Below are positions 1,913-16,873 of a stretch of DNA of 26,658 nt, one piece after another; position 1 is the first letter of the stretch, and each line of letters opens with the position of its first letter. The notes under the pieces were generated by a model. That model was not told where the DNA came from, did not search any database, and saw only the letters and a program-made list of their open reading frames with translations. The DNA is taken from positions 1 through 26,658 of the IMG/VR virus record IMGVR_UViG_3300025010_000213; one strand, given 5' to 3'. The position numbers were made by a program, and so were the translations under genes. Origin of the DNA: a virus.

Positions 1913-2130
1913 CAGTCAATCTCTCCTCTCATTACTTTGTTAAAGATGATAATTTGTCGTTCTAATTCTTGTTTACCCATGTTAACACGTTCCCTTCCGT
2001 CGAAGATAAAATAAAATATACCATCCTTGCGTACATCATAATCATTCCATGCAAAATCATTTCCTCCTACTAATTTAGAGTAAATCTTCCCAACTTGAAG
2101 GAAAGGATTTGCATAGAATGATTTGATGTA
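1912..2130 (-). pseudogene. 5'-truncated gene remnant
   Basis: A minus-strand frame, open from 2232 down to TGA at 1912, encodes convincing protein in its downstream part (for example FAWNDYDVRKDGIFYFIFDG followed by GRERVNMGKQELERQ), but no ATG, GTG or TTG is found upstream in frame before the stop at 2233-2235. The only ATG in frame is at 1980. It is preceded by GAAGGGAACGTGTTAAC and would give a 22-residue peptide coupled to the Cys-rich gene. The simplest reading is that the 5' end was lost when the hairpin-rich control region was joined here. Alternatively the short peptide alone is translated. I do not recognise the parent protein; the 5' boundary given is approximate. Confidence 0.45.
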
Positions 2131-2243
2131 ACACTTATGAAAAAGAACACAAACTAATGAATAGAATGTGTACTGTACGTATAGTAGAGTGAACAGCCGA
2201 TGTATTTTTCCTGATGAGGATGTACTTGTAAATTACATTTAAC

Positions 2244-2330
2244 GTTCGAGCGTAGCGAAGCGAAGCGAAGAACAAGGCGTCCTTAGACGCCTTAACGATG
2301 ACCTGTACTGTATTAACGTTTATAAACGTT
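2244..2330 (-). ncRNA. Structured leader element, copy L
   Basis: Read on the minus strand, this contains in order: a palindromic hairpin (2330-2315); the 10-mer AGGTCATCGT (2304-2295); a perfect 8-bp stem AAGGCGTC/GACGCCTT with a TAAG loop (2293-2274); and an arm bounded by GTTC (2273) and GAAC (2244), filled with CGCTTCGC repeats. The same order and the same unpaired motifs occur on the plus strand at 3192-3267 with different but fully paired stem sequences. Conservation of pairing rather than sequence points to a structured RNA (or single-stranded DNA). It would lie in the leader of the leftward operon. Confidence 0.5.
2315..2330. repeat. 16-bp perfect palindrome
   Basis: AACGTTTATAAACGTT is identical to its reverse complement. 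It may fold as a hairpin in RNA (part of copy L of the leader element) or be a dimeric protein binding site. It resembles the 2996-3011 palindrome in having an AT-only centre. Confidence 0.6.
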
Positions 2331-2400
2331 ACGTAGATAAGGTATTGTACTAACGTCTTAGACGTTTTGTAGGAACATATTGCTATATGTACTGGTATGA

Positions 2401-2443
2401 GTGGCTGATGTGTAGGGAATGTGTGCTGTATGCCTACAGCCAC
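2401..2443. promoter_or_regulatory. Mutually exclusive hairpins
   Basis: GTGGCTG (2401-2407) can pair perfectly with CAGCCAC (2437-2443), while GCTGTA (2425-2430) can pair with TACAGC (2435-2440) across a TGCC loop. Both structures need bases 2437-2440, so they exclude each other, as in attenuators or riboswitch expression platforms. No ligand-binding family is recognised and the transcribed strand is uncertain. Confidence 0.3.
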
Positions 2444-2458
2444 GCGGTGTACATGGGT

Positions 2459-2480
2459 GTGAACGTGTAGTGAACGTGTT
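2459..2480. repeat. 11-bp tandem repeat GTGAACGTGT(A/T)
   Basis: Two tandem copies of an 11-bp unit (2459-2469 and 2470-2480) lie immediately upstream of TATAAT at 2480-2485. The one-helical-turn spacing is what an activator binding beside RNA polymerase would need. Whether a promoter is active here is not known. Confidence 0.45.
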
Positions 2481-2807
2481 ATAATACAGTTGATACTGTT
2501 ATAGTGCACAGTACTTAATGTGTTGCTGAAAGTCTGCTGAAAGCTGGTTGCTATACCTATTAGTACTCAAAACCACACATGTGGGTGTGATGTACTTGTG
2601 TTGTATTTGTGTGCTGTTAGTGGTGTAACTTACGTTTTATGTATGTGGTATAAGTTATCAATTAGGTATGCCCCGGGAGGGGCAAAGTGGTAACGTGGAA
2701 CCTTTCGTTCTTCCTCTTCGATATAATGTTTCTGTCCACAGAGGTGTTTATATATAAACTACGTTGTGTAAAAAAAGTTGTGTGTGAAGGTGCAGAGACA
2801 TAAAATT

Positions 2808-2838
2808 CATTGTGTAAATACATTGTGACTACATTGTA
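2808..2838. repeat. CATTGT direct repeats
   Basis: CATTGT occurs at 2808, 2821 and 2832 (spacing 13 and 11 bp), the first two as CATTGTG, each followed by an A/T-rich stretch. They could be operator or iteron-like sites; no protein is assigned. Confidence 0.35.
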
Positions 2839-2995
2839 AAAATATACTGTGTGTATTTTTTTTAGGATGAAATAATCAGAAAAACGGAAAGAACGTGTTC
2901 TCTAGGTACTCTTCCACATCAGCCCGTCAGTTATGTATAGACTACGTAGTACTTTAGTACTTACTCCATTTGAAGGTGGCTAATGTACTATACGT

Positions 2996-3011
2996 AGTGC
3001 TTATAAGCACT
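2996..3011. repeat. 16-bp perfect palindrome near the promoters
   Basis: AGTGCTTATAAGCACT is a perfect palindrome directly upstream of the phased GTTAAGA repeats. It could bind a dimeric regulator or form a hairpin in a leftward transcript, whose predicted start is at about 3035. Confidence 0.55.
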
Positions 3012-3013
3012 TT

Positions 3014-3072
3014 GTTAAGATTATGTTAAGAAAATATAAGTTTTCTAAAAACTTGTTAAGATTGTGTCAAGA
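3014..3072. promoter_or_regulatory. Two pairs of GTTAAGA sites with 11-bp phasing
   Basis: GTTAAGA occurs at 3014 and 3025, again at 3055, and as GTCAAGA at 3066. Each pair forms a 20-bp repeat (3012-3031 and 3053-3072) with two differences, and the pairs are 41 bp apart, about four helical turns. Tandem direct repeats with an 11-bp period are the usual layout for OmpR-type response regulators and some phage activators. They sit just upstream of the rightward promoter and inside the leftward one. Confidence 0.5.
3042..3070 (-). promoter_or_regulatory. Leftward promoter candidate
   Basis: On the minus strand TTGACA (3070-3065) is followed after 17 nt by TAGAAA (3047-3042), a perfect -35 with a 4/6 match at -10. 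It diverges from the rightward promoter; the two -35 hexamers form the inverted repeat TGTCAA-N6-TTGACA. It would transcribe the left arm through a long leader. Confidence 0.4.
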
Positions 3073-3076
3073 CGTA

Positions 3077-3105
3077 TTGACAAGTTCTAAAAGTACAGTT
3101 ATAAT
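3077..3105 (+). promoter_or_regulatory. Consensus sigma-A promoter for the structural operon
   Basis: TTGACA (3077-3082) and TATAAT (3100-3105) are both perfect consensus hexamers with the optimal 17-bp spacer. The expected start is around 3112, giving a leader of about 240 nt before the first gene (TTG 3352). Its strength implies repression or timing control, for which the surrounding repeats are candidates. Confidence 0.85.
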
Positions 3106-3141
3106 TAGTTAACCCCCGTTTACGAATGAAATGAGTAAACG

Positions 3142-3169
3142 AAAATTAAGAGCGAAGCGATTTAATTTT
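3142..3169 (+). ncRNA. Leader stem-loop with an 11-nt loop complementary to a later loop
   Basis: AAAATTAA (3142-3149) pairs with TTAATTTT (3162-3169), leaving a 12-nt loop GAGCGAAGCGAT. Bases 3150-3160 of this loop are the exact reverse complement of bases 3253-3263, the loop of the GTTC/GAAC arm further down the same leader. A kissing-loop interaction, or competition between local and long-range pairing, is possible. Confidence 0.5.
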
Positions 3170-3191
3170 GAACACTCTAAGTACGTGTGTA

Positions 3192-3267
3192 GTAAACCGT
3201 TAGGTTTACGTTATGTAGAGGTCATCGTAACTTTGCTAAGGCAAAGTTGTTCTCGCTTCGCTCGAAC
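3192..3267 (+). ncRNA. Structured leader element, copy R
   Basis: In order this holds: stem GTAAACC/GGTTTAC with a GTTA loop (3192-3209); AGGTCATCGT (3219-3228); an 8-bp stem AACTTTGC/GCAAAGTT with a TAAG loop (3229-3248); and the GTTC...GAAC arm with loop TCGCTTCGCTC (3249-3267). It parallels copy L on the opposite strand. It lies 85 nt before the first rightward gene and within the transcript expected from the consensus promoter. Confidence 0.55.
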
Positions 3268-3313
3268 ATTTAACAAATCAATAAAAATAACTATACGTAT
3301 AAGTTTGTGTGTA

Positions 3314-3330
3314 GTGGGCGTTTAGCCCAC
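3314..3330 (+). promoter_or_regulatory. Hairpin just upstream of the first ribosome binding site
   Basis: GTGGGC, loop GTTTA and GCCCAC form a perfect 6-bp GC-rich stem ending 7 nt before the AAGGAGG (3338-3344) of the 3352 gene. There is no T run, so it is not an obvious terminator. It may stabilise the mRNA or influence initiation. Confidence 0.4.
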
Positions 3331-3351
3331 GTTACGTAAGGAGGAAATAGA

Positions 3352-3723
3352 TTGAGTTTTCTTAAAGTAGCTAATCTTATTATATCCAGTGCAACATTAT
3401 TTATACTTGTCAAAGATAAATTACCTTGTTTAGCCGATATACCTCAGGTACCTCCACCACCTCAAGTACCTCCGCAATCTCAAGTATCCGAAGTACCCGA
3501 TATTTCTCCTGATGTGGACGTTCCTTCTTTACACCTCTCACGTAACGAACAAGAACGGGTATTTGATGCACGTATTGCACGTTTGAAGAGTGAAGTGTCA
3601 AGTAGACAGTCTGCCCCAATCCACACCCCTACAGTTGCCGCTATACTTGATCCTAATGTGTATAACCTCCCTCATGACGTAATTCCAAGTGATCATTTCC
3701 CTGATGAGGAGGTGTCGGAATAA
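3352..3723 (+). CDS. Proline-rich protein with N-terminal hydrophobic segment
   Basis: Translation starts at TTG 3352, seven nt after AAGGAGG. The 123-residue product has a hydrophobic segment at about residues 4-20 (LKVANLIISSATLFILV), which could be a signal anchor. A Pro/Gln/Val-rich linker follows with repeated PPPPQVPPQ-like units (about 32-60), then a charged helical part (SRNEQERVFDARIARLKSEV) and a Pro/Asp-rich C-terminus. It is the first gene after the consensus promoter and leader. I do not recognise a family. A membrane-tethered role or a small virion component is possible but unproven. Confidence 0.65.
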   Translation: MSFLKVANLIISSATLFILVKDKLPCLADIPQVPPPPQVPPQSQVSEVPDISPDVDVPSLHLSRNEQERVFDARIARLKSEVSSRQSAPIHTPTVAAILDPNVYNLPHDVIPSDHFPDEEVSE

Positions 3724-3939: not shown

Positions 3940-4363
3940 TTGTGAAGAAGGGGATTTAATCCTTACGTTAGAACCAAAGGTTCAACGATTTATCCATTTG
4001 TACACTACAGGTCAATACACTCTAGCAAAGTTAGCTCAATTGCTTGATGTAGGTCATAACACACCCACACGTTGGATGAAGAATCCAGTGGTGAAACAGG
4101 TTATTGAGGAAATGCAGTTAGGTACTCATGACATTGTTACAACACAATTAAAAGCCCTTACGCTGAAAGCGGTGAATAAGTTATCCGACTTAACGCAATC
4201 TCCCATTGATGGGGTTGCACTTCAAGCAGTTAAAGATATTTTGGATAGAGCAGGACACAAAGCTAAACAAGAAATTAAGATTGATAAAACGGTTCACACA
4301 TTTGAGGAAAAGATGAGCCGCCTAATTGATGAAACGATACTTGATGGGGAGGTAATTGAATAA
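3860..4363 (+). CDS. terS: Terminase small subunit
   Basis: The 167-residue protein has the layout of phage small terminases. A variable Pro/Thr-rich N-terminus is followed by a helix-turn-helix region (about 35-80; VQRFIHLYTTGQYTLAKLAQ, then a recognition-like helix with NTPTRWMKNPVVK). An oligomerisation helix follows (QLKALTLKAVNKLSDLTQ) and a charged C-terminus that usually contacts the large subunit. In the family, the N-terminal domain binds the packaging site and a ring of small subunits loads the motor. The start is uncertain: GTG 3860 has AAAGGA nearby, and GTG 3863 is a close alternative. The stop overlaps the next start (TAATG). The large subunit gene follows after two inserted genes, supporting the assignment. 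Confidence 0.75.
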   Translation: MVSLTPTKKESPTTQLLPIPNSLKEDDCEEGDLILTLEPKVQRFIHLYTTGQYTLAKLAQLLDVGHNTPTRWMKNPVVKQVIEEMQLGTHDIVTTQLKALTLKAVNKLSDLTQSPIDGVALQAVKDILDRAGHKAKQEIKIDKTVHTFEEKMSRLIDETILDGEVIE

Positions 4364-4587
4364 TGGGATTTGGTTATGCGTTAGATTGGTTAAAAGATGG
4401 TATGTCAGTTTATCGTGAAGGTTGGAACGGTAAGGGTATGTGGTTAAAACTTCAAAATCCCGATGCACACTCCAAAATGACGTTACCGTATATTTACATG
4501 CGTACTGCTGATGGGAACCTTGTGCCTTGGTTAGCATCACAGACCGATATACTGGCAAGTGATTGGCGTATTAGGTATGCAGACTAA
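4363..4587 (+). CDS. tad2: Tad2-like DUF2829 protein (putative anti-Thoeris)
   Basis: The 74-residue product matches the DUF2829 pattern. It has an N-terminal helix FGYALDWLKDGMSVYREGWN with the family's GWNGKGM turn, a middle strand, then YIYMRTADGNLVPWLASQTD and ILASDW at the end. DUF2829 proteins include Tad2, which assembles into tetramers and sequesters the cyclic ADP-ribose-type signal made by Thoeris TIR proteins, so that the effector ThsA is not activated. This copy is slightly shorter than many homologues but retains both ends of the domain. It overlaps the small terminase stop (TAATG) and has no separate promoter, so it would be expressed with the structural genes. Family membership is seen from motifs; anti-Thoeris activity is inferred and some DUF2829 proteins may bind other signals. 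Confidence 0.75.
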   Translation: MGFGYALDWLKDGMSVYREGWNGKGMWLKLQNPDAHSKMTLPYIYMRTADGNLVPWLASQTDILASDWRIRYAD

Positions 4588-4650: not shown

Positions 4651-5172
4651 ATGGCAATACCATATGAGCAACGTGTTGGTGAAAAAATTAATAAGCTCAA
4701 AATTTTGGAACTTATTGGTAAACGTCATAATGGTCATAGAGTTAAGATAATGTGTTTGGTTGAATGTGAATGTGGTACAAAGTTTGAAACTTTAATTGAA
4801 AGTGTTGTTAGTGGTCAAACAACTAGTTGTGGATGTAATCGTAAAAAACACGGTAATTCTGCTCAAAGAAAAATGTATAATAATTATAAAAATGGTGCTA
4901 AAAGTAGAGGGTATTCTTTTGAATTAACTCAAGAAGAGTTTGTTTTTATTTCATCGTCTTATTGTCATTATTGTGGTGCCGAACCATCTAATGTTAAAGA
5001 AATGTATGGTGATACTTTTGTTATAAATGGTATTGATCGTATGGATAATACAATTGGTTACACAATAGGTAATTCTTTACCTTGTTGTTCTATTTGTAAT
5101 CGTGCTAAGGGTATTCTTTCTTATGATGATTTTTTAGGTTGGATTGAGGCGATAAAAGAATGGCAAAGTTAA
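4651..5172 (+). CDS. Free-standing HNH (homing-type) endonuclease
   Basis: The 173-residue protein has an N-terminal zinc-finger-like part (CECGTKFE with C39/C41, then TTSCGCNRKKH with C60/C62) common in phage homing nucleases. A basic linker follows, then an HNH domain. The latter has zinc ligands C105/C108 (YCHYCGA) and C146/C149 (CCSICNRAKG), and the core segment NGIDRMDNTIGYTIGNSLPC. It would cut DNA and promote its own spread. It has its own extended -10 promoter and GGGGGTGA site. Its codon usage is strikingly AT-rich, and the AT-rich tract runs on into the first ~110 codons of the large terminase. The 3' end overlaps the terminase start by 13 nt. The placement between small and large terminase genes is a typical homing-endonuclease location; no intron boundaries are seen. 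Confidence 0.85.
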   Translation: MAIPYEQRVGEKINKLKILELIGKRHNGHRVKIMCLVECECGTKFETLIESVVSGQTTSCGCNRKKHGNSAQRKMYNNYKNGAKSRGYSFELTQEEFVFISSSYCHYCGAEPSNVKEMYGDTFVINGIDRMDNTIGYTIGNSLPCCSICNRAKGILSYDDFLGWIEAIKEWQS

Positions 5173-8977: not shown

Positions 8978-9736
8978 TTGAATATTACTCAATATCGTGA
9001 ATTAGTGGCACAGGAAGCCCTACAAGCTGCTAATCCTGCTGTAGAAGTTAAACCTGAAGTGATTGCACCAGTAGTAACGGAAGAACCCATTAAAACCCCT
9101 CCTGTGGCTCCTGAGAAGATTACAGTTGATGGTGAAGAGTTTACCATTGAAGAGTTAAAGAATGGTTATCTTCGCCAAAAGGATTATACTCAGAAAACCC
9201 AAGAGGTTGCAAGACAACGTGAAGAGAGTAAAGAAGCGATTGCTTTTTATGAGCATTTGAAACAAAACCCTCAGTTGGCAGAACAAATCAAACAAGTGGC
9301 ACCGGTTCCAACTCAGCTTGATCCAGCAATGGCTAGAGTTGCTGACCTTGAAGCAAAGTTGTACGACATGAAGTTGGAACGAGATATTGAGGTATTGCAA
9401 AATAAATACCCTGACTTTGAAATTCGTGAAGTCATTAAAATGGCTCAAGAGAAACAGATTGTCAATTTGGAAGATGCCTATCATTTGATTAAGTCAAGCA
9501 AACCAGTAACACCTGTTGATACAGAGGCACTTAAACGAAGCATAAGGCAAGAAATCTTAGCTGAGTTAAAACAGGAAGGTATTAGCACTCAAACACTTAT
9601 TTCTTCAAATGATGGAACAGCACATATTCCTGATAACAAACCAAGTATTTCTCCTGATGAGCAAAAGGTTGCTCGTATGATGGGATTAACTGAAGCAGTC
9701 TACGTCAAGTGGCGTGATGCTTCAACTAGAAAGTGA
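8978..9736 (+). CDS. Capsid scaffolding protein
   Basis: TTG 8978 follows GAGGAGA. The 252-residue protein is Gln/Glu/Lys-rich and almost entirely helical. A Pro/Val-rich N-terminus (25-50) is followed by VDGEEFTIEELKNGYLRQKD, a motif frequent in phage scaffolds, then long coiled-coil segments (about 75-150) and a basic C-terminal helix (QKVARMMGLTEAVYVKWRDA) suited to contacting the coat protein. Scaffolds guide coat assembly into a procapsid and leave before or during packaging. Position immediately upstream of the coat gene supports this. No protease domain is evident. Confidence 0.8.
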   Translation: MNITQYRELVAQEALQAANPAVEVKPEVIAPVVTEEPIKTPPVAPEKITVDGEEFTIEELKNGYLRQKDYTQKTQEVARQREESKEAIAFYEHLKQNPQLAEQIKQVAPVPTQLDPAMARVADLEAKLYDMKLERDIEVLQNKYPDFEIREVIKMAQEKQIVNLEDAYHLIKSSKPVTPVDTEALKRSIRQEILAELKQEGISTQTLISSNDGTAHIPDNKPSISPDEQKVARMMGLTEAVYVKWRDASTRK

Positions 9737-9756
9737 TAGAAAAGAGGGTGATACGT

Positions 9757-10752
9757 ATGGATTTTATATTTGATCTTCAACGGTTTGCTGTCCCTGTACA
9801 ACCAACTGTTGATAATGCGTTTAACTACACTACGGATGATGTAAAAAACAAGACCAATTTTGGTATGTTGCTTGAACCCGGTCTTCGTAAGATTTTCTTT
9901 GAAACGTATGATGAATTGCCGGAACAGTTTGCCAAGGTTTACAATGTGGCTGATTCTACAAAAGCTATGGAACACGATTGGGGCATGGGTGCCTTTGGTG
10001 ATTGGGATAAGCGTGGAAGTCAGTTTGATGTGGTTTCCTACAAGAAACTGTCTCCCGGTTTGAAACGTGACTATATTCACGAAGCATTTACCCAAGGATT
10101 CATGATTACTCGGGAAATGTACGATGATGAACAATACCGTCAAATGGAGAAAATGCCAAAAGCAATGGCACGATCTGGTCGTGCTAAGGTAGAGAAAGAT
10201 GCTATGGTTCCCTTGCTTACTGGCTTTGTTACAGACATTTACGATGGTAAGAAGTTGTTTGCTGCGGATCATCCATTACTTGATAACGCTGCTAAGGTTG
10301 GTAAGAACTTGGCAACGGGTGCCTTGACGGATGTAAATCTTAAGAAGGCTTTGCAACTAATGAGAGAGACATTGGATGAAGCAGGGAACTTGGTTCAGTT
10401 CAAAGCAACTCGCCTTATCATCCCTCCGGCTCTTGAGGATACAGCCATTCGTATCTTGAAAACCGTACAAGTTCCGGGTGGAAACCTGAATGATACAAAC
10501 ACCTTCCTTAACTCCTATGGGATTGAAATTGTTGTCTTGGATTACCTTGGTCTTGCATCGGGTGGATCGGATACTGCATGGTTCTTACAGGATGCTTCTA
10601 GACATGAACTTAACTTCTTCTGGCGTGTACGTCCTGAGTTCAAATGGGAAGAAACTTTCGATGACTTCATGAGTAAATATCGTGGTTATATGCGTTACAG
10701 CATGGGAGTATCGGATTGGCGTGGACTCATGGGTAGCACAGGAATTGGCTAA
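9757..10752 (+). CDS. Major capsid protein
   Basis: The ATG at 9757 (after GAGGGTG) is preferred to an in-frame GTG at 9733. The 331-residue product opens with MDFIFDLQRFA, an N-terminal pattern frequent in coat precursors of Gram-positive phages. It continues with HK97/Mu gpT-like features: an E-loop-like region (REMYDDEQYRQMEKMPKAMA), FAADHPLLDNA, KATRLIIPPALEDTAIRILK and a C-terminal FKWEETFDDFMSKYRGYMRY. The middle part resembles the FAA.HP.L...GNL...L pattern of Mu-type heads. It forms the icosahedral shell with the scaffold. Codon usage is richer in C here than in neighbouring genes, as is common for highly expressed coat genes. Confidence 0.88.
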   Translation: MDFIFDLQRFAVPVQPTVDNAFNYTTDDVKNKTNFGMLLEPGLRKIFFETYDELPEQFAKVYNVADSTKAMEHDWGMGAFGDWDKRGSQFDVVSYKKLSPGLKRDYIHEAFTQGFMITREMYDDEQYRQMEKMPKAMARSGRAKVEKDAMVPLLTGFVTDIYDGKKLFAADHPLLDNAAKVGKNLATGALTDVNLKKALQLMRETLDEAGNLVQFKATRLIIPPALEDTAIRILKTVQVPGGNLNDTNTFLNSYGIEIVVLDYLGLASGGSDTAWFLQDASRHELNFFWRVRPEFKWEETFDDFMSKYRGYMRYSMGVSDWRGLMGSTGIG

Positions 10753-10781
10753 TTCAGCTAACTAAATAGGAGGTGGTTTAT

Positions 10782-11036
10782 ATGGCAGATCGTTTTGTAG
10801 CTATGGAGAAGTTTGCTAAAGTTGCAAGTGCGGCTGAGGGTACAGCAAATGCTGTTGTGTTTTCTTGTCCACTTTATGCTCCTGTAGGGATGATTCCCAC
10901 AGTGCTTAAAGTGACATCAGGTGCTTTGTATGTAACAGGGGTTACGTGTTTGTACGATGCAACAGCTAAGACAATTACAGTAGCCGGTACTGATATTACA
11001 GAAGGTGATAAAGTATCCGTTCTAGCGTTTGCGTAA
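10782..11036 (+). CDS. Small capsid-associated (decoration-like) protein
   Basis: The ATG at 10782 follows AGGAGGTGG. The 84-residue protein is Ala/Val/Thr-rich with alternating beta strands (AVVFSCPLYAPVGMIPTVLK, then ALYVTGVTCLYDATAKTITV) and a compact VSVLAFA end, consistent with a small beta-barrel that decorates capsids. It directly follows the coat gene and is closed by a strong terminator, so it shares the high-expression part of the operon. Family membership is not recognised; the role is inferred from position and size. Confidence 0.6.
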   Translation: MADRFVAMEKFAKVASAAEGTANAVVFSCPLYAPVGMIPTVLKVTSGALYVTGVTCLYDATAKTITVAGTDITEGDKVSVLAFA

Positions 11037-11047
11037 ATTAAATAAAT

Positions 11048-11077
11048 AAGGGGGTGGTGAAAAATCCACCCCTTTTT
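11048..11077 (+). terminator. Rho-independent terminator after the capsid genes
   Basis: GGGGTGG (11051-11057) and CCACCCC (11066-11072) form a 7-bp GC-rich stem with an 8-nt loop, followed by TTTTT; outer A-T and G-T pairs extend it. No clear promoter was found right after it, so it likely lowers rather than ends transcription of downstream tail genes. Confidence 0.85.
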
Positions 11078-11098
11078 GTTTGGATAGGAGTGATAAAA

Positions 11099-11320
11099 AT
11101 GGCAAATAGAACAACAGATATAAATGGTCATCCGATTAAGTTAGTTGATTTGGGTGATGGTACCTTTGGTATTGCAACATCTGAAGTTGCCATGGAAGGG
11201 TTTGGTGCAACGGTTGCAACAAGACCTGCCGCAACAACGGTACCGATTGGGTTTGCTTGGATGAGTGTAGCGACACAAGAAGTGTGGCAAAGTGATGGAA
11301 CGAATTGGGTGGTGGTATAA
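11099..11320 (+). CDS. Small fibre-type protein (73 aa)
   Basis: The ATG at 11099 follows GATAGGAGTGATAAAA. The protein starts MANRTTDINGHPIKLVDLGD. It ends with a pattern often seen at the ends of phage head- or tail-fibre modules, TTVPIGFAWMSVATQEVWQS then DGTNWVVV, which resembles short beta-strand modules that attach fibres. Its stop overlaps the ATG of the giant fibre gene (TAATG), so the two are coupled. A role as a small partner or connector of the fibre is likely but unproven. Confidence 0.6.
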   Translation: MANRTTDINGHPIKLVDLGDGTFGIATSEVAMEGFGATVATRPAATTVPIGFAWMSVATQEVWQSDGTNWVVV

Positions 11321-14300
11321 TGGGTATTATTGATTTAAAGTTTGCAAAGAAATACATTGATTCAAAAGTTAGTTCGTTTATTGATCCTTCAGCTATTGAT
11401 GTTGCTAGAGCTGGATTAGTTCGTTCACAACGTCATTCTGGGGTTATCGATTATAAACCTATTGTCACAGGATCAACAACGAATTTGAATAGTATTACCA
11501 TTCCTGAAACAACGTATTCTGTGAATGGGTATGAAATTACTATGCCTTTGACGGTTATTACATTACCTATTGCTCCTGCAAATGTTGGAGAGAAGTGGGA
11601 AGATTTTGTTCTTTTTGAATCATGGTTTCCTTCAACCGGAAATGGATATGCGATAAGTGGTCGATACAGAACGGTATCAAATGTTAACTTTACTACCTAT
11701 CCTGATGGTGTAAATGATACGGTTAATGTAAAAGCATGGGGTGGTAATGTTGCCAATACTGCATTGACGTATGCAATGGGTAGTGTTGATAAAGGAGTTT
11801 ATGTTTCTGGAAGTGGGAGTGCAGGAGATAAAGCTACTCTCTTAACCTATGATGGCTACTCCTACGCAATTCCATTATTTAGGGTTAAAAGACGGAATTC
11901 ATCGGGTTTCAGTCCTGCTAATCCGAATGGGGGTAGGAATTATTTTTCACTTACACCTACAGCACAATCTCCTAATCCTGTAAATAGGAATAGCGTAACA
12001 ACAATCACCGTAAGTTCTGGTGCCTCTACACTTCAAATAGGAGACATAGTTACACTGGCTAACTACACATATCTTACACTCAAAGTAGAAAGCATTGTGT
12101 CAGACACGCAATTTACTGCAACTTATTTAGGCATTGATTCCACATGTGTTGTATTGGGTAATCAAATTATCAAATCTAGTTTGTTAAATATGCACCCCCA
12201 ATCCCTCTACTCCAACGTCATCGACCAAAGAGACATCACAGACTTGAGACACGAAACAAAAGCTCAATATAATTATGATTACATCCTCAAAAAAGCAGAT
12301 GATCAATTCAAGCGTGGAGAACTTTCGCCTAAGAAAATGCTGACTGAGCATCATGGTATACCTAAGACAGAGATAGATGGGAACACTGTGTTTTATGCTA
12401 GTTTGGATGGGACGTTAGTACCCGAATTTCCTTTAGGCAGTAGTGCTATGAATCTTGGTACAGGGTCATTTAAACCTATGCCTACTGGGAGTGGGTATAA
12501 GTTTAATGGGGATAGTGCCTTACTTCTAGACGTTAGTGGAATAAGCGTGAATGATGGTTCGATTGGGTTTGAAGTGAACACGGTAGATTTAAAAAATGAA
12601 ACTGCAAGTTTTCCTATAGCAGTTTCAATTAGAGATTCAAGCGATACGCAAGTGTTTTCTGTAATCTATGGAAAATCTGTTAATGTCTTATATTTGGAAG
12701 AGAAGTATACTGATAGCACAACGGTTTCTACCCCTAGTAATTATACTTTGTCAAATATGCCCTATCTTAATATTTGTGCATCATGGGATAGCATTAATTT
12801 ATATTTACGTGTAAACGGTAATTTAATAGGTACTGTTGCAAGAAAATCGAATACTCTATGGAAAATTCCCGCCAAGGTACGCTTTGGTTCCTCAAATCTT
12901 AAATCTACCCTCTCAAACATCTCAATCTCCAACATCGACCGTGGCTCACTATTCCCCAATCTCCCTCCCGACTTCATCTCAGGTGACGCTATCATAATGC
13001 CAGCATACACCGACCAAAGACGCATTTTATCGGAAGCTCAAATGAGTCAAACAGTCAATTCTATTGTAAAATCGACAAATTTGTTAAATAGTCATGGAAT
13101 TAATCGTGTAGTAATTGGTACTCCTAATACTTGGAGTGCTAGTGATACTATTACTGTAACAGGTATGGCAGGAGAATTGATTTCTGGAGTGTTTGATGAG
13201 GGTACTGCTTTGGCTAAGGTCACTTATATTAGTGGTGAAGGAACAACGAGTCTCTCATATAAAGCAGAGAGCGTATCTGGAATCTCTGTAGGTGACATTG
13301 TAGTCCCTGTATATGGTGATACTTGGGCTCCATCAAGTGCCGTTTTTACAATCACTAGTGTTGATACGGCAACTAAAATAATTAACGTTACATCAAGTGT
13401 AACCATTATTGTAGGCTACGGTATAAGAATCGCTTATCTAGTTGAAACAACAACTGCATCCTCAGTCCCATTGGCCTACCACATGGTAGCAGGAGTCAAA
13501 ACAGCAGTAGTAGGAACATGGGCAACACTTGGAACAAATGTAGCAACATTTACATTAGGAACAAATGCAGGACTTGTAGCACAGGATATTCAGATTGATT
13601 ATTCCTTGATTATGCCAGCAGGTCAACCTGCATTTAGTGTGCCTACTACGACTACTTTAATGGGTGAAGCAGGGTTTAGATTACCTTATGCTAATCAGAC
13701 TATTGTGAGTGATTATGCTAGTAAGATTAGTGGTAGGACTTGGGAGAATCCTAATATTGCTAAGACATTAAGTGGGATTGTAGCAAATAATCCTGCTCCT
13801 AGTGCATTTTTGACTGAGTTAGATGATGTTGAATATCCTAAAATTTATACTCAGAATGGTGTAGTGACTACATTTAGTACAAGTATAAATGGTGAGCAAG
13901 CATGTGTGTTATTGGGTTTTGATGCAATTAAATGGGCAGAAAGGAAACTTGGTTGTAAGATTCCTGCTGTTGGAGTGACAAGTAAGGTTGCTTGGATTAA
14001 GAATAACTTGAGTGCATTAACAGGAAATGTCTGGTGTAGTGGTAGTTCAACTGCTGGAAATATTGCTGCATTGAAAACTTGGAATGTTACTAATACTGCT
14101 TATTCTACAGGTAGTTACTCAAATTCTAATGCGTCTATTGCTAAAGTGTCATTTGCTTTAGGTTCTGGTTATGCAAGTTATATTACTGCTGAAGGTTATG
14201 TTTTCTTTGTGGTTTATTCGGGTACATCAAATGGCGACATACCATCCACCATCAACGTAGACTATGCTTCACTAGACATCAAATTCGCCGATAAAATCGT

Positions 14301-15657
14301 GAATTCATTTGGTTTAGCAACAGGTCAAACCGTTGATATTAGGGATGATTTTGCAGGGAAGATAGTAGGGAGTATTGTTGAGTGTCCTAATACTATTAGT
14401 ATATCTGTAAATACATCTTTAATTACTCCTTCTGATACAGTGGGCGTAGTTGAGGTATCAAATTGGGGTACGACTTACGATCAATTAACCTCTTTAAATA
14501 ACACACTATGCACAGTTGCTAATAATGTTAATTTAGCTATTGCCCAAATGCGCTTTAAATTTAATCTAATCCGCATAGTAGAAGATAAAATGGGAACTAT
14601 TCCTGCAATTGATAAGGTTCAGTGGTTGAAGGATAATTTGACAAGTATTACTTGTAATTGGTGGGGATATGGAAGTTCACCGACTGGGAACAAGGCGACA
14701 TTAGCTGGTTGGTATCAGGGTGCTTGGAGTTCCACATCGTCTACCTACCATACTAATTCTAGCGTGACTAAAGTGCTTAGAAAATTCGACGAAGTTGCGA
14801 GTGGATCAATTAATTTAATTGGAACTACTAACGACGGTTTCGTTCATTTTCTTTCTTATGCAGAACCCAGTGACGGAGTAACAGCATCAACCATCTACAC
14901 GGACTATTGCAACATTGAATTAACACTTAAAAAGCCAACTGGATATGATGTTTTATCTCCAAGTAATCCTAGAAGAGATTCAGGATTGAGTAATATTTTG
15001 CTTGTAAGAAAAGAGACTAAAGAAGTTCAGTCCTTGTTCCCCTACTCCAATGAGTTTATGCTGACTACGTACAGTGATTATCTTGAAGCTCCTACGCCTA
15101 TAAGTGCGAATACCGATGTAACAATACTTGCTGAAGCAGATGACTTTACTTTAACTGACATTGGTTCTGCTGTTGGTAACAAAATAGGTACTCATCAATG
15201 GGGAAATATTGCAAGTAAAACCTTAAACGACAATGATAACATGTCTGGTGAGTTTGGTTATTCGGTTGTTAAATTTGCACCAGATTCTAAAGGTATTAAC
15301 ATTGGGAGTAAAGTCACTGTTAATGCTACAGGGTTTGCAAATAACTATTGGAAACAGTTTGCATTAAACACAGTAAGTAAACCAATGGTTGGTATTGCAA
15401 GGTATCTAGTATTGGTTAATGGTGAATTAAAACTGTTTGTGTTTAGTAAATACTCTGCTACTGGTGGATTCACAACAGATGGTACAGGTATTGGCATTCT
15501 TATCAATCTACAAGGTAAACCACTCAGTAAAGAATCAGAGGGTATTGTTAGAAGTGGTGTTAATACACCGACAGCATGGAAGTCTGGTGAGTTGATTCCT
15601 ACAGGTTATGTTGATAAGGCAACTGGTAAACTCATCACCACCAATAACAGTATCTAA
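11320..15657 (+). CDS. Giant modular tail/head fibre protein (1445 aa)
   Basis: The ATG at 11320 overlaps the previous stop. The N-terminal ~350 residues form a virion-attachment-like region of beta-rich segments, including FIDPSAIDVARAGLVRSQRH. Residues about 351-543 look like a LamG/concanavalin-type jelly roll (VFYASLDGTLVPEF, LLLDVSG, LNICASWDSINLYLRVNG). Two related ~120-residue domains follow (about 873-991 and 1086-1208), sharing IPA...KV.W.K.NL..., GSS..GN.A.L..W and STI..DY. A beta-rich tip ends the protein. It probably binds the host surface polysaccharide. Base composition alternates between T/G-rich and C-rich patches, as in genes assembled by repeated recombination. Whether it belongs to the tail or the head cannot be decided from sequence. 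Confidence 0.75.
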   Translation: MGIIDLKFAKKYIDSKVSSFIDPSAIDVARAGLVRSQRHSGVIDYKPIVTGSTTNLNSITIPETTYSVNGYEITMPLTVITLPIAPANVGEKWEDFVLFESWFPSTGNGYAISGRYRTVSNVNFTTYPDGVNDTVNVKAWGGNVANTALTYAMGSVDKGVYVSGSGSAGDKATLLTYDGYSYAIPLFRVKRRNSSGFSPANPNGGRNYFSLTPTAQSPNPVNRNSVTTITVSSGASTLQIGDIVTLANYTYLTLKVESIVSDTQFTATYLGIDSTCVVLGNQIIKSSLLNMHPQSLYSNVIDQRDITDLRHETKAQYNYDYILKKADDQFKRGELSPKKMLTEHHGIPKTEIDGNTVFYASLDGTLVPEFPLGSSAMNLGTGSFKPMPTGSGYKFNGDSALLLDVSGISVNDGSIGFEVNTVDLKNETASFPIAVSIRDSSDTQVFSVIYGKSVNVLYLEEKYTDSTTVSTPSNYTLSNMPYLNICASWDSINLYLRVNGNLIGTVARKSNTLWKIPAKVRFGSSNLKSTLSNISISNIDRGSLFPNLPPDFISGDAIIMPAYTDQRRILSEAQMSQTVNSIVKSTNLLNSHGINRVVIGTPNTWSASDTITVTGMAGELISGVFDEGTALAKVTYISGEGTTSLSYKAESVSGISVGDIVVPVYGDTWAPSSAVFTITSVDTATKIINVTSSVTIIVGYGIRIAYLVETTTASSVPLAYHMVAGVKTAVVGTWATLGTNVATFTLGTNAGLVAQDIQIDYSLIMPAGQPAFSVPTTTTLMGEAGFRLPYANQTIVSDYASKISGRTWENPNIAKTLSGIVANNPAPSAFLTELDDVEYPKIYTQNGVVTTFSTSINGEQACVLLGFDAIKWAERKLGCKIPAVGVTSKVAWIKNNLSALTGNVWCSGSSTAGNIAALKTWNVTNTAYSTGSYSNSNASIAKVSFALGSGYASYITAEGYVFFVVYSGTSNGDIPSTINVDYASLDIKFADKIVNSFGLATGQTVDIRDDFAGKIVGSIVECPNTISISVNTSLITPSDTVGVVEVSNWGTTYDQLTSLNNTLCTVANNVNLAIAQMRFKFNLIRIVEDKMGTIPAIDKVQWLKDNLTSITCNWWGYGSSPTGNKATLAGWYQGAWSSTSSTYHTNSSVTKVLRKFDEVASGSINLIGTTNDGFVHFLSYAEPSDGVTASTIYTDYCNIELTLKKPTGYDVLSPSNPRRDSGLSNILLVRKETKEVQSLFPYSNEFMLTTYSDYLEAPTPISANTDVTILAEADDFTLTDIGSAVGNKIGTHQWGNIASKTLNDNDNMSGEFGYSVVKFAPDSKGINIGSKVTVNATGFANNYWKQFALNTVSKPMVGIARYLVLVNGELKLFVFSKYSATGGFTTDGTGIGILINLQGKPLSKESEGIVRSGVNTPTAWKSGELIPTGYVDKATGKLITTNNSI

Positions 15658-15668
15658 TCTAAGCCACA

Positions 15669-15693
15669 GGAAGGGGGTTTTAAGCCCTCTTCC
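15669..15693 (+). terminator. Hairpin after the giant fibre gene
   Basis: GGAAGGGGG pairs with CCCTCTTCC (one G-T pair) around a 7-nt loop, giving a stable 9-bp stem 10 nt after the stop. There is no T run, so it may protect or process mRNA rather than terminate it. Confidence 0.45.
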
Positions 15694-15710
15694 ATTTAAG
15701 GAGGGGTATT

Positions 15711-16277
15711 ATGTACAACATTGTATTTAACAGGCTTACAAGGCAAGTGTGTGGCTATGATAGGCAACCTATGCCGTTTGAATTGGAGTTGTTGATTCCT
15801 TACCCAATCAGTCTTTCCAAAACAGTTGAAGAAATTACTGGAATGGTAATTCAAAAGGTTAATGAAAATGGTGAATTGCTTTATCTTAATGGAGAGGTTG
15901 AAACCACTGAAGCACGAGTGGCAACAGAGTTTGAAACTGTGATTAACACCTACCGAATTGCCACAGATGAAGTTACTCTTGAAACGGTGGTTGATGAGTT
16001 GGGTGTTACTACAGAAGTTGAAGTACCGATTTATGAGGAAATCTCCACATCAGTAGAAATGCCTATTTCCTTTGATGAACATGAACCTATTATGATTGAT
16101 GAGGTTGTGAGCAAAACTTATACCTTTGATCAAAACCCTTATATCTTTGTGGTGGATGAAGTAATTGAGGCTATAGCCGCTACTGTTCCTGTGAAGACAG
16201 AATTTGAATTAGCCGTTGATCGAGTCAGTGCTACAGAAGATGCTATTATGACATTGATGGATATGAACTTACTGTAA
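15711..16277 (+). CDS. Hypothetical acidic beta-rich protein (188 aa)
   Basis: The ATG at 15711 follows AAGGAGGGG. The 188-residue product is unusually acidic and rich in Val, Thr and Glu, with many alternating strands (for example VINTYRIATDEVTLETVVDE, and TEVEVPIYEEISTSVEMPI). It ends in a helix, AVDRVSATEDAIMTLMDMNL, of a type seen at the ends of small tail-associated proteins encoded just before XkdX in Gram-positive phages. Its position between fibre and XkdX-like genes suggests a tail or fibre accessory role. I do not recognise a named family. Confidence 0.6.
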   Translation: MYNIVFNRLTRQVCGYDRQPMPFELELLIPYPISLSKTVEEITGMVIQKVNENGELLYLNGEVETTEARVATEFETVINTYRIATDEVTLETVVDELGVTTEVEVPIYEEISTSVEMPISFDEHEPIMIDEVVSKTYTFDQNPYIFVVDEVIEAIAATVPVKTEFELAVDRVSATEDAIMTLMDMNLL

Positions 16278-16289
16278 GGGGGTTATGCT

Positions 16290-16415
16290 GTGTATAATTT
16301 CATTTTAAAAATGTTTCTCATTGGTAAAATTGATGATGTTAAAGTCCAATCTTATTGTCCTACGTATATTACGCAAGATGATGTTGATGCTATTTTGGCA
16401 ACCAAAGGAGGTTAA
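16290..16415 (+). CDS. xkdX: XkdX-like miniprotein (41 aa)
   Basis: A short frame starts at GTG 16290, seven nt after AAGGGGG, and ends at TAA 16413-16415. Its 41-residue product starts MYNFILKMFLIGKIDDVKVQ and continues SYCPTYITQDDVDAILA. This matches the XkdX family pattern: an aromatic start, a short amphipathic helix, G-K/R, V...Y/F, and then IT followed by a helix. XkdX of the PBSX prophage lies downstream of the fibre-type genes; its function is not well defined. The last codons contain the AAAGGAGG site of the next gene. Confidence 0.7.
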   Translation: MYNFILKMFLIGKIDDVKVQSYCPTYITQDDVDAILATKGG

Positions 16416-16417
16416 TT

Positions 16418-16873
16418 ATGAGACGATTAGATTTAATTTTACGTGTTCGATCTTATACACGTGATTTTTCTAATTCTATTTTTCGTGAAGCAGATATTGT
16501 TGATTATCTTAATGAAGGGATTGATCGGTTTAAACAGATTGTTCCTGAGTTAAAGAATCTAACGTATTTGCTTACAAGCACACAGGTTCCTGAATTGATA
16601 CCAAGTGAATATCATCACTTGCTTTCGTTGTTTGCCGCTTCTCGATGCTTTGCACAAGATGAAGGTCATTATCGGGCAACAACGCTAATGAATGAGTTTG
16701 AAGTTAAGTTGCAAGAGTTCTTATCAAGAATTGAAAGTGGTCACATCAAGATACTGGATGCTAGTACTGGATTACCTATTGTTCTTGATGAGGAATTGGA
16801 TTATGTTAAGTTGGATTCGTATTGGGGTACTGAGATTGTTGATCTTGATGATGGTGTGGAGGGAGTTGAGTAA
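16418..16873 (+). CDS. Head-tail adaptor protein
   Basis: The ATG at 16418 follows AAAGGAGG by 8 nt. The 151-residue protein is helical with a conserved adaptor-like pattern: FREADIVDYLNEGIDRFKQI, a stretch with PSEYHHLLSLFAASRCFAQD, then EFEVKLQEFLSRIESG, and an acidic C-terminal tail. Podoviral adaptors form a dodecameric ring below the portal and their C-terminal arms insert into it. The neighbouring downstream nozzle gene fits. Assignment is from fold pattern and order, so the exact family is uncertain. Confidence 0.65.
   Translation: MRRLDLILRVRSYTRDFSNSIFREADIVDYLNEGIDRFKQIVPELKNLTYLLTSTQVPELIPSEYHHLLSLFAASRCFAQDEGHYRATTLMNEFEVKLQEFLSRIESGHIKILDASTGLPIVLDEELDYVKLDSYWGTEIVDLDDGVEGVE

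Follow-up and report, generated by a model that had tools for sequence, protein, structure and literature searches.

What role is played by the two similar hairpin arrays that lie on either side of a divergent intergenic region, one at the head of each outward operon, is the question raised by the stretch of phage DNA analyzed here (26,658 nucleotides, positions 1 to 26,658 of IMGVR_UViG_3300025010_000213; hereafter, the window). The window is part of a tailed-phage genome, which seems to be complete in IMGVR_UViG_3300001041_000004, a near-identical record of 53,499 bp that has an 80-bp end repeat. This genome has a single large divergent region, at about 2100-3350 of the window. Rightward from it runs the structural (late) operon, which begins with a 123-aa gene that has orthologues in relatives (3352-3723, plus strand) and continues with the small and large terminase, a P22-type portal, capsid, and tail genes; leftward runs the replication (early) operon, with a SLOG-family protein, a DnaB-type helicase, a primase, and DNA polymerase III alpha. 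The nearest annotated phage terminases matched at 37%, a terminase match of 39.5% came from a Brevibacillus phage-like plasmid with a layout unlike that of the window phage, and terminase searches of genome contigs returned neither a host nor a prophage. Between the terminase subunits, a small gene (4363-4587) strongly matches a Tad2-like family (Thoeris anti-defence), and a reading frame at 4651-5172 resembles, by eye, a putative HNH-type zinc protein. In L128, positions 9375-16721, within the late operon, encode a 2448-aa protein without any Pfam or PHROG match, in which polymerase motifs B and C were sought and neither was found. Short ACGT-centred palindromes (CACGTG, ACGTGT...ACACGT) are abundant in the divergent intergenic region of the window (2330-3000) and likewise in L004, L134, and L145, and are possibly origin or regulator sites.

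The core of element A occupies 2304-2244 on the minus strand, and that of element B 3219-3267 on the plus strand. Element B reads AGGTCATCGT-AACTTTGC(TAAG)GCAAAGTT-GTTC...GAAC, that is, a linker (3219-3228), a hairpin 1 with a perfect 8-bp stem (3229-3248), and, abutting it, hairpin 2, GTTC-TC-GC(TTC)GC-TC-GAAC (3249-3267), whose inner GC(TTC)GC would, in our reading of the letters, pair as well; a box search in the leaders placed CAAATCAA at 3274-3281, 3' of hairpin 2. Element A reads AGGTCATCGT-T-AAGGCGTC(TAAG)GACGCCTT-GTTC...GAAC, with the same linker (2295-2304, minus strand), which was not found in relatives, a hairpin 1 that again has a perfect 8-bp stem (2274-2293), and a hairpin 2 arm in which GTTC and GAAC enclose TTCGC repeats (2244-2273). 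Only four perfect Watson-Crick hairpins of at least 8 bp occur in the whole window, and two of these are hairpin 1 of A and of B. When the two TAAG stems were aligned, five of the eight pairs differed on both sides and 100% of the cells were paired, versus 23 to 50% in controls in which the A/B alignment was slid by one to three columns. Since the GTTC...GAAC arm is invariant between A and B, it provides no covariation evidence. The first-pass annotation of this DNA had described the coordinates, the linker, the TAAG loops, and the 8-bp stems exactly as we found them, and its claims that the stems had swapped letters while staying paired, and that each element is sense-oriented in the leader of its outward operon, held up as well. 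It had also listed a further hairpin upstream of each core as changed but still paired: TAACGTT(TATA)AACGTTA (2314-2331, minus strand) and GTAAACC(GTTA)GGTTTAC (3192-3209, plus strand) are indeed both paired, but their homology is weak and they do not align as one stem.

Several other features surround element B. It is overlapped by a 64-aa reading frame (3131-3325), which we judged, by eye only, to be non-coding, with no ribosome site seen ahead of it. The segment GAGCGAAGCGA at 3150-3160 is the exact reverse complement, over 11 nt, of the loop of B hairpin 2 (3253-3263), and in the predicted fold of leader B this long-range pairing replaces hairpin 2, which may represent either a switch or a folding artefact. 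The hairpins at 3178-3209 and 3300-3330 share a preceding 16-nt stretch that is 88% alike and ends in GTGTGTAGT, and the latter hairpin lies just 5' of the first late gene's ribosome site.

We then asked how far the elements extend beyond this phage. A pattern of the form AGGTCATCGT..TAAG..GTTC was scanned over 2.9 million viral contigs and gave 110 stretches, of which solely those from the window phage contained the stem; the remaining matches were rejected, as their stems of at most 4 bp were at chance level. A covariance model built from A and B gave only chance-level scores beyond the window phage over 0.6 Mb comprising the window and its relatives. By the refuting condition that the first-pass annotation had set, an absence of further copies with compensatory changes from related phages, the literal form thus fails, while a broader layout, two adjacent hairpins with a CAAAYCA box, does recur in related phages. 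The conserved unit is this general layout, which is absent from the first-pass annotation.

The layout was analyzed in several dozen relatives, gathered by terminase and small-terminase alignments. Two adjacent hairpins are present in the late-operon leader of 15-20 of these phages, mostly downstream of a near-consensus sigma70 promoter (many of them 30-150 nt from it), and their loops are mostly C(UUC)G, C(UAC)G, or C(UAAC)G. In L138, for example, GAACCCC(TTC)GGGGTTC is followed by GAAAGTTCC(TAAC)GGAACTTTC, and in L142, TACTTCCC(TAAC)GGGAAGTA by GGTAATTAC(TTC)GTAATTACC; double hairpins occur likewise in L004, L134, L135, L136, L140, L143, L150, L153, L162, L166, and L213; in L194 and L209-L212, the second hairpin is weaker. 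A strict descriptor, requiring that both loops begin with T and be closed by C-G, matched eight pairs across 431 kb of strand sequence, each lying in a leader and in sense orientation, whereas 2.16 Mb of dinucleotide-preserving shuffles gave no match. The CAAAYCA box was found at most 40 nt 3' of the hairpins in 14 of 21 leaders versus 0.70 expected, a ratio that is indicative only, since the relatives are not independent; in L209-L212 the box is paired as part of hairpin 2, and in L150 as part of an outer stem. An outer stem is also seen in L004 (GAGTTA/TAACTC), where it closes close to the predicted start. Among the 332 pairs of 44 annotated stems, 331 are Watson-Crick, none is G-U, and one is a mismatch, and the sequence itself is not kept; perfect stems were favoured by the search, yet G-U is also missing from the flank-anchored sets. 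A structure selected for its RNA form alone would not usually lack G-U pairs, which leaves room for a role at the DNA level. No leader of the window or of 15 relatives matched Rfam. As a separate observation, L166 carries at about 3520-3607 an insert of ~55 nt that is absent from its close kin L134 and L135 and contains two more hairpins, whose loops read GAA and GTT on the plus strand.

Compensatory change was also seen within the relatives. In L209, L210, L211, and L212, whose flanks align, hairpin 1 shows three double-sided pair changes and no break, and L212 was recovered through the box, independently of the hairpin search. The A-side copies of L134, L135, and L166 added two more double-sided changes (AAGCC/GGCTT versus GAGTC/GACTC). 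Because these sets are small (four and three rows), their shuffle controls are modest, and what carries the case is that position, orientation, and adjacency agree with the changes; a mixed-hairpin alignment was left out of the covariation evidence, as its rows had been chosen for being hairpins. The earlier claim of a selected structure in both divergent leaders is upheld by these findings, and A and B are very probably a selected leader RNA.

Five lineages have a copy in each divergent leader, namely, the window phage, L134/L135/L166, L140, L143, and L213. An identical hairpin, GAATCAC(TTC)GTGATTC, stands on both sides in L140, and the A-side gap between hairpins is 4 nt in L140 as well as in L134/L135/L166. 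In G011/L162, L138, and L150, the A side yielded no copy; the A copy is common among the relatives but not universal. Another two-sided likeness inside one phage was noted in L155, where the late-leader hairpin AACCCAGC(GAA)GCTGGGTT (4.9-5.1 kb; 4438-4477 in L225) has its stem in common with a hairpin on the minus strand at about 3909, AACCCAGCC(TCAC)GGCTGGGTT.

To consider what the leaders may do, promoters and terminators were mapped. The late promoter, TTGACA-17-TATAAT (3077-3105, plus strand), is a 12/12 sigma70 match and the sole one of this quality in the complete genome; upstream of A, no sigma70-like promoter was recognised. Immediately 5' of the late promoter lies an operator-like direct repeat, TTGTTAAGATTRTGTYAAGA (3012-3031 and 3053-3072). 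A terminator role for the hairpins themselves was rejected, for hairpin 2 is followed by no U-tract in the window or in the listed relatives. A scan of the complete genome revealed only two strong intrinsic terminators, both internal and in sense orientation, one per operon. The first (11050-11078, plus strand; stem of -15.2 kcal/mol and a T-run) lies 7.7 kb into the late operon, directly after a small gene behind the capsid gene, and the second (1461-1437, minus strand; stem of -10.8 kcal/mol and a T-run) lies near the start of the early operon, after a 54-aa gene. The late operons of the relatives contain ten such terminators in sense and none in antisense orientation, four of the ten belonging to the close kin L134, L135, and L166. 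Since the internal terminators are strong and the promoter-like sites behind them few and at best 11/12, a polymerase started upstream of the leader must pass a strong terminator to reach most genes of each operon, unless unrecognised promoters exist.

These findings led us to hypothesize that put-like processive antitermination, a function already suggested by the first-pass annotation with reference to HK022, is the most likely role of the leaders, although we propose it tentatively. It is plausible because intrinsic terminators, in sense orientation, lie inside the operons that follow the leaders. A and B would then be two copies of one cis-acting leader RNA, one per divergent operon, with two directly abutting hairpins as its core; in B and most relatives, a short CAAAUCA box comes next. 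Both elements would be transcribed, and the nascent leader RNA, by itself or together with a bound factor, would cause the host RNA polymerase to read through the internal terminators, here those at 1461-1437 and 11050-11078. Several points argue against this proposal: (i) a terminator placed after capsid genes could be a deliberate, partial stop, (ii) the letters of the stems are exchanged freely, while the action of put relies on certain bases, (iii) A has no recognised promoter and some relatives have no A copy, and (iv) G-U is absent from the 332 annotated pairs.

Known put RNAs suppress termination through the zinc-binding domain of the RNA polymerase beta' subunit. In HK022, putL and putR each consist of two stem-loops, the copies are alike, and one is present in each divergent operon before terminator-bearing transcripts (PMC9378689). 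The leaders described here resemble them in having two stem-loops within about 70 nt (linker, hairpin 1, and hairpin 2 together span 49 nt in B and 61 nt in A), in the likeness of the two copies within the phage, and in having one copy in each divergent operon; the two-hairpin arrangement recurs in relatives. A put copy stands downstream of each of two divergent promoters, and in the window phage a promoter was recognised for B only. However, in HK022 put the stems include mismatches, and certain bases are critical for function, whereas the stems here are near-perfect and exchange their letters freely, a CAAAUCA box follows, and one of the two operons is structural. The leaders are put-like by analogy and are not filed in the put family. 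Long terminator-bearing operons are the targets of HK022 put, LoaP, and conAn alike (PMC9378689, PMC12691694, PMC8955417). In the LoaP-dependent dfn/mln operons, a leader hairpin with a UNCG-like loop precedes such an operon (PMC12691694), but dfn is a single hairpin read by a NusG paralogue, and the loop here reads as a triloop closed by C-G. A search for PF02357 (NusG) in nine phage records found none, while the control was positive in 10 of 14 genomes, the search covering phage-encoded proteins; a LoaP could be encoded by the host. The conAn and EAR RNAs of Gram-positive bacteria also stand at the start of long operons with internal terminators (PMC8955417); conAn also requires the ConAn1 protein next to its conAn2 RNA, and EAR, like other Rfam families, has a covariance model that the leaders do not match.

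A role in mRNA stability or processing, in which the 5' stems would block exonucleases or be cut by RNase III with termination unaffected, is unlikely, even though the leaders are rich in stable hairpins, the outer stem of L004 closes near the predicted start, and free exchange of stem letters suits a role that needs only pairing. A stabiliser would require less constraint than is seen in the loop types, in the adjacency of the two hairpins, and in the CAAAYCA box, and many copies lie 30-150 nt from the promoter. Quite unlikely is that the leaders are bound by a small RNA or by a protein, of phage or host origin, that sets the translation or timing of both operons rather than termination. A and B are more alike within a phage than between phages (the linker and loop here, the hairpin of L140), as expected if both follow one partner, and the pairing of the box into hairpin 2 or the outer stem could be a switch; on the other hand, no partner was identified, and a NusG-type protein is absent from the phage genomes.

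The lack of G-U pairs in perfect stems is a point in favour of a function at the DNA level, as single-stranded hairpins for replication priming or as promoters of an N4-type virion polymerase with a GAA or GTA loop on the template strand. Promoters of the N4 virion RNA polymerase have a short stem and a three-base, purine-rich loop on the template strand, a feature shared by the hairpins here, since the opposite strand of C(TTC)G is C(GAA)G and that of C(TAC)G is C(GTA)G; moreover, the elements are placed symmetrically about the intergenic region of a phage that carries its own replication genes. Nevertheless, we consider this explanation very unlikely, because host-type promoters stand directly 5' of the B copies and the tetraloop variants TAAC and TAAG do not fit. 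No polymerase gene was recognised either, PF00940 (T7-type polymerase) giving no match with its positive control likewise silent, and the 2448-aa protein lacking motifs B and C. Finally, a chance or duplication artefact, in which a sequence was copied once with no selection on structure, has next to no probability, for although the TTCGC repeats of A hairpin 2 resemble slippage, it is already contradicted by the relatives with their compensatory changes, by the five double-sided A/B changes, and by the lack of double hairpins in shuffles.

To our knowledge, RNA-based antiterminators have been described in only a few settings: put in lambdoid phages, EAR in bacilli, and conAn with its protein partner. 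It is conceivable, though we would not call it probable, that the leaders constitute a new family of processive antitermination RNAs of largely uncultivated phages, defined by two adjacent perfect hairpins with C(UNC)G-type loops and a CAAAUCA box, active in both divergent operons, and keeping their structure despite nearly complete sequence turnover. Even without antitermination, what we describe is a real and apparently selected structured leader, compact, lacking an Rfam entry, shared across a group of largely uncultivated phages, and directly testable. If the leaders do act in the same way as the known antiterminators, RNA-guided read-through would prove a more widespread strategy among phages, one to be recognised from layout instead of sequence.
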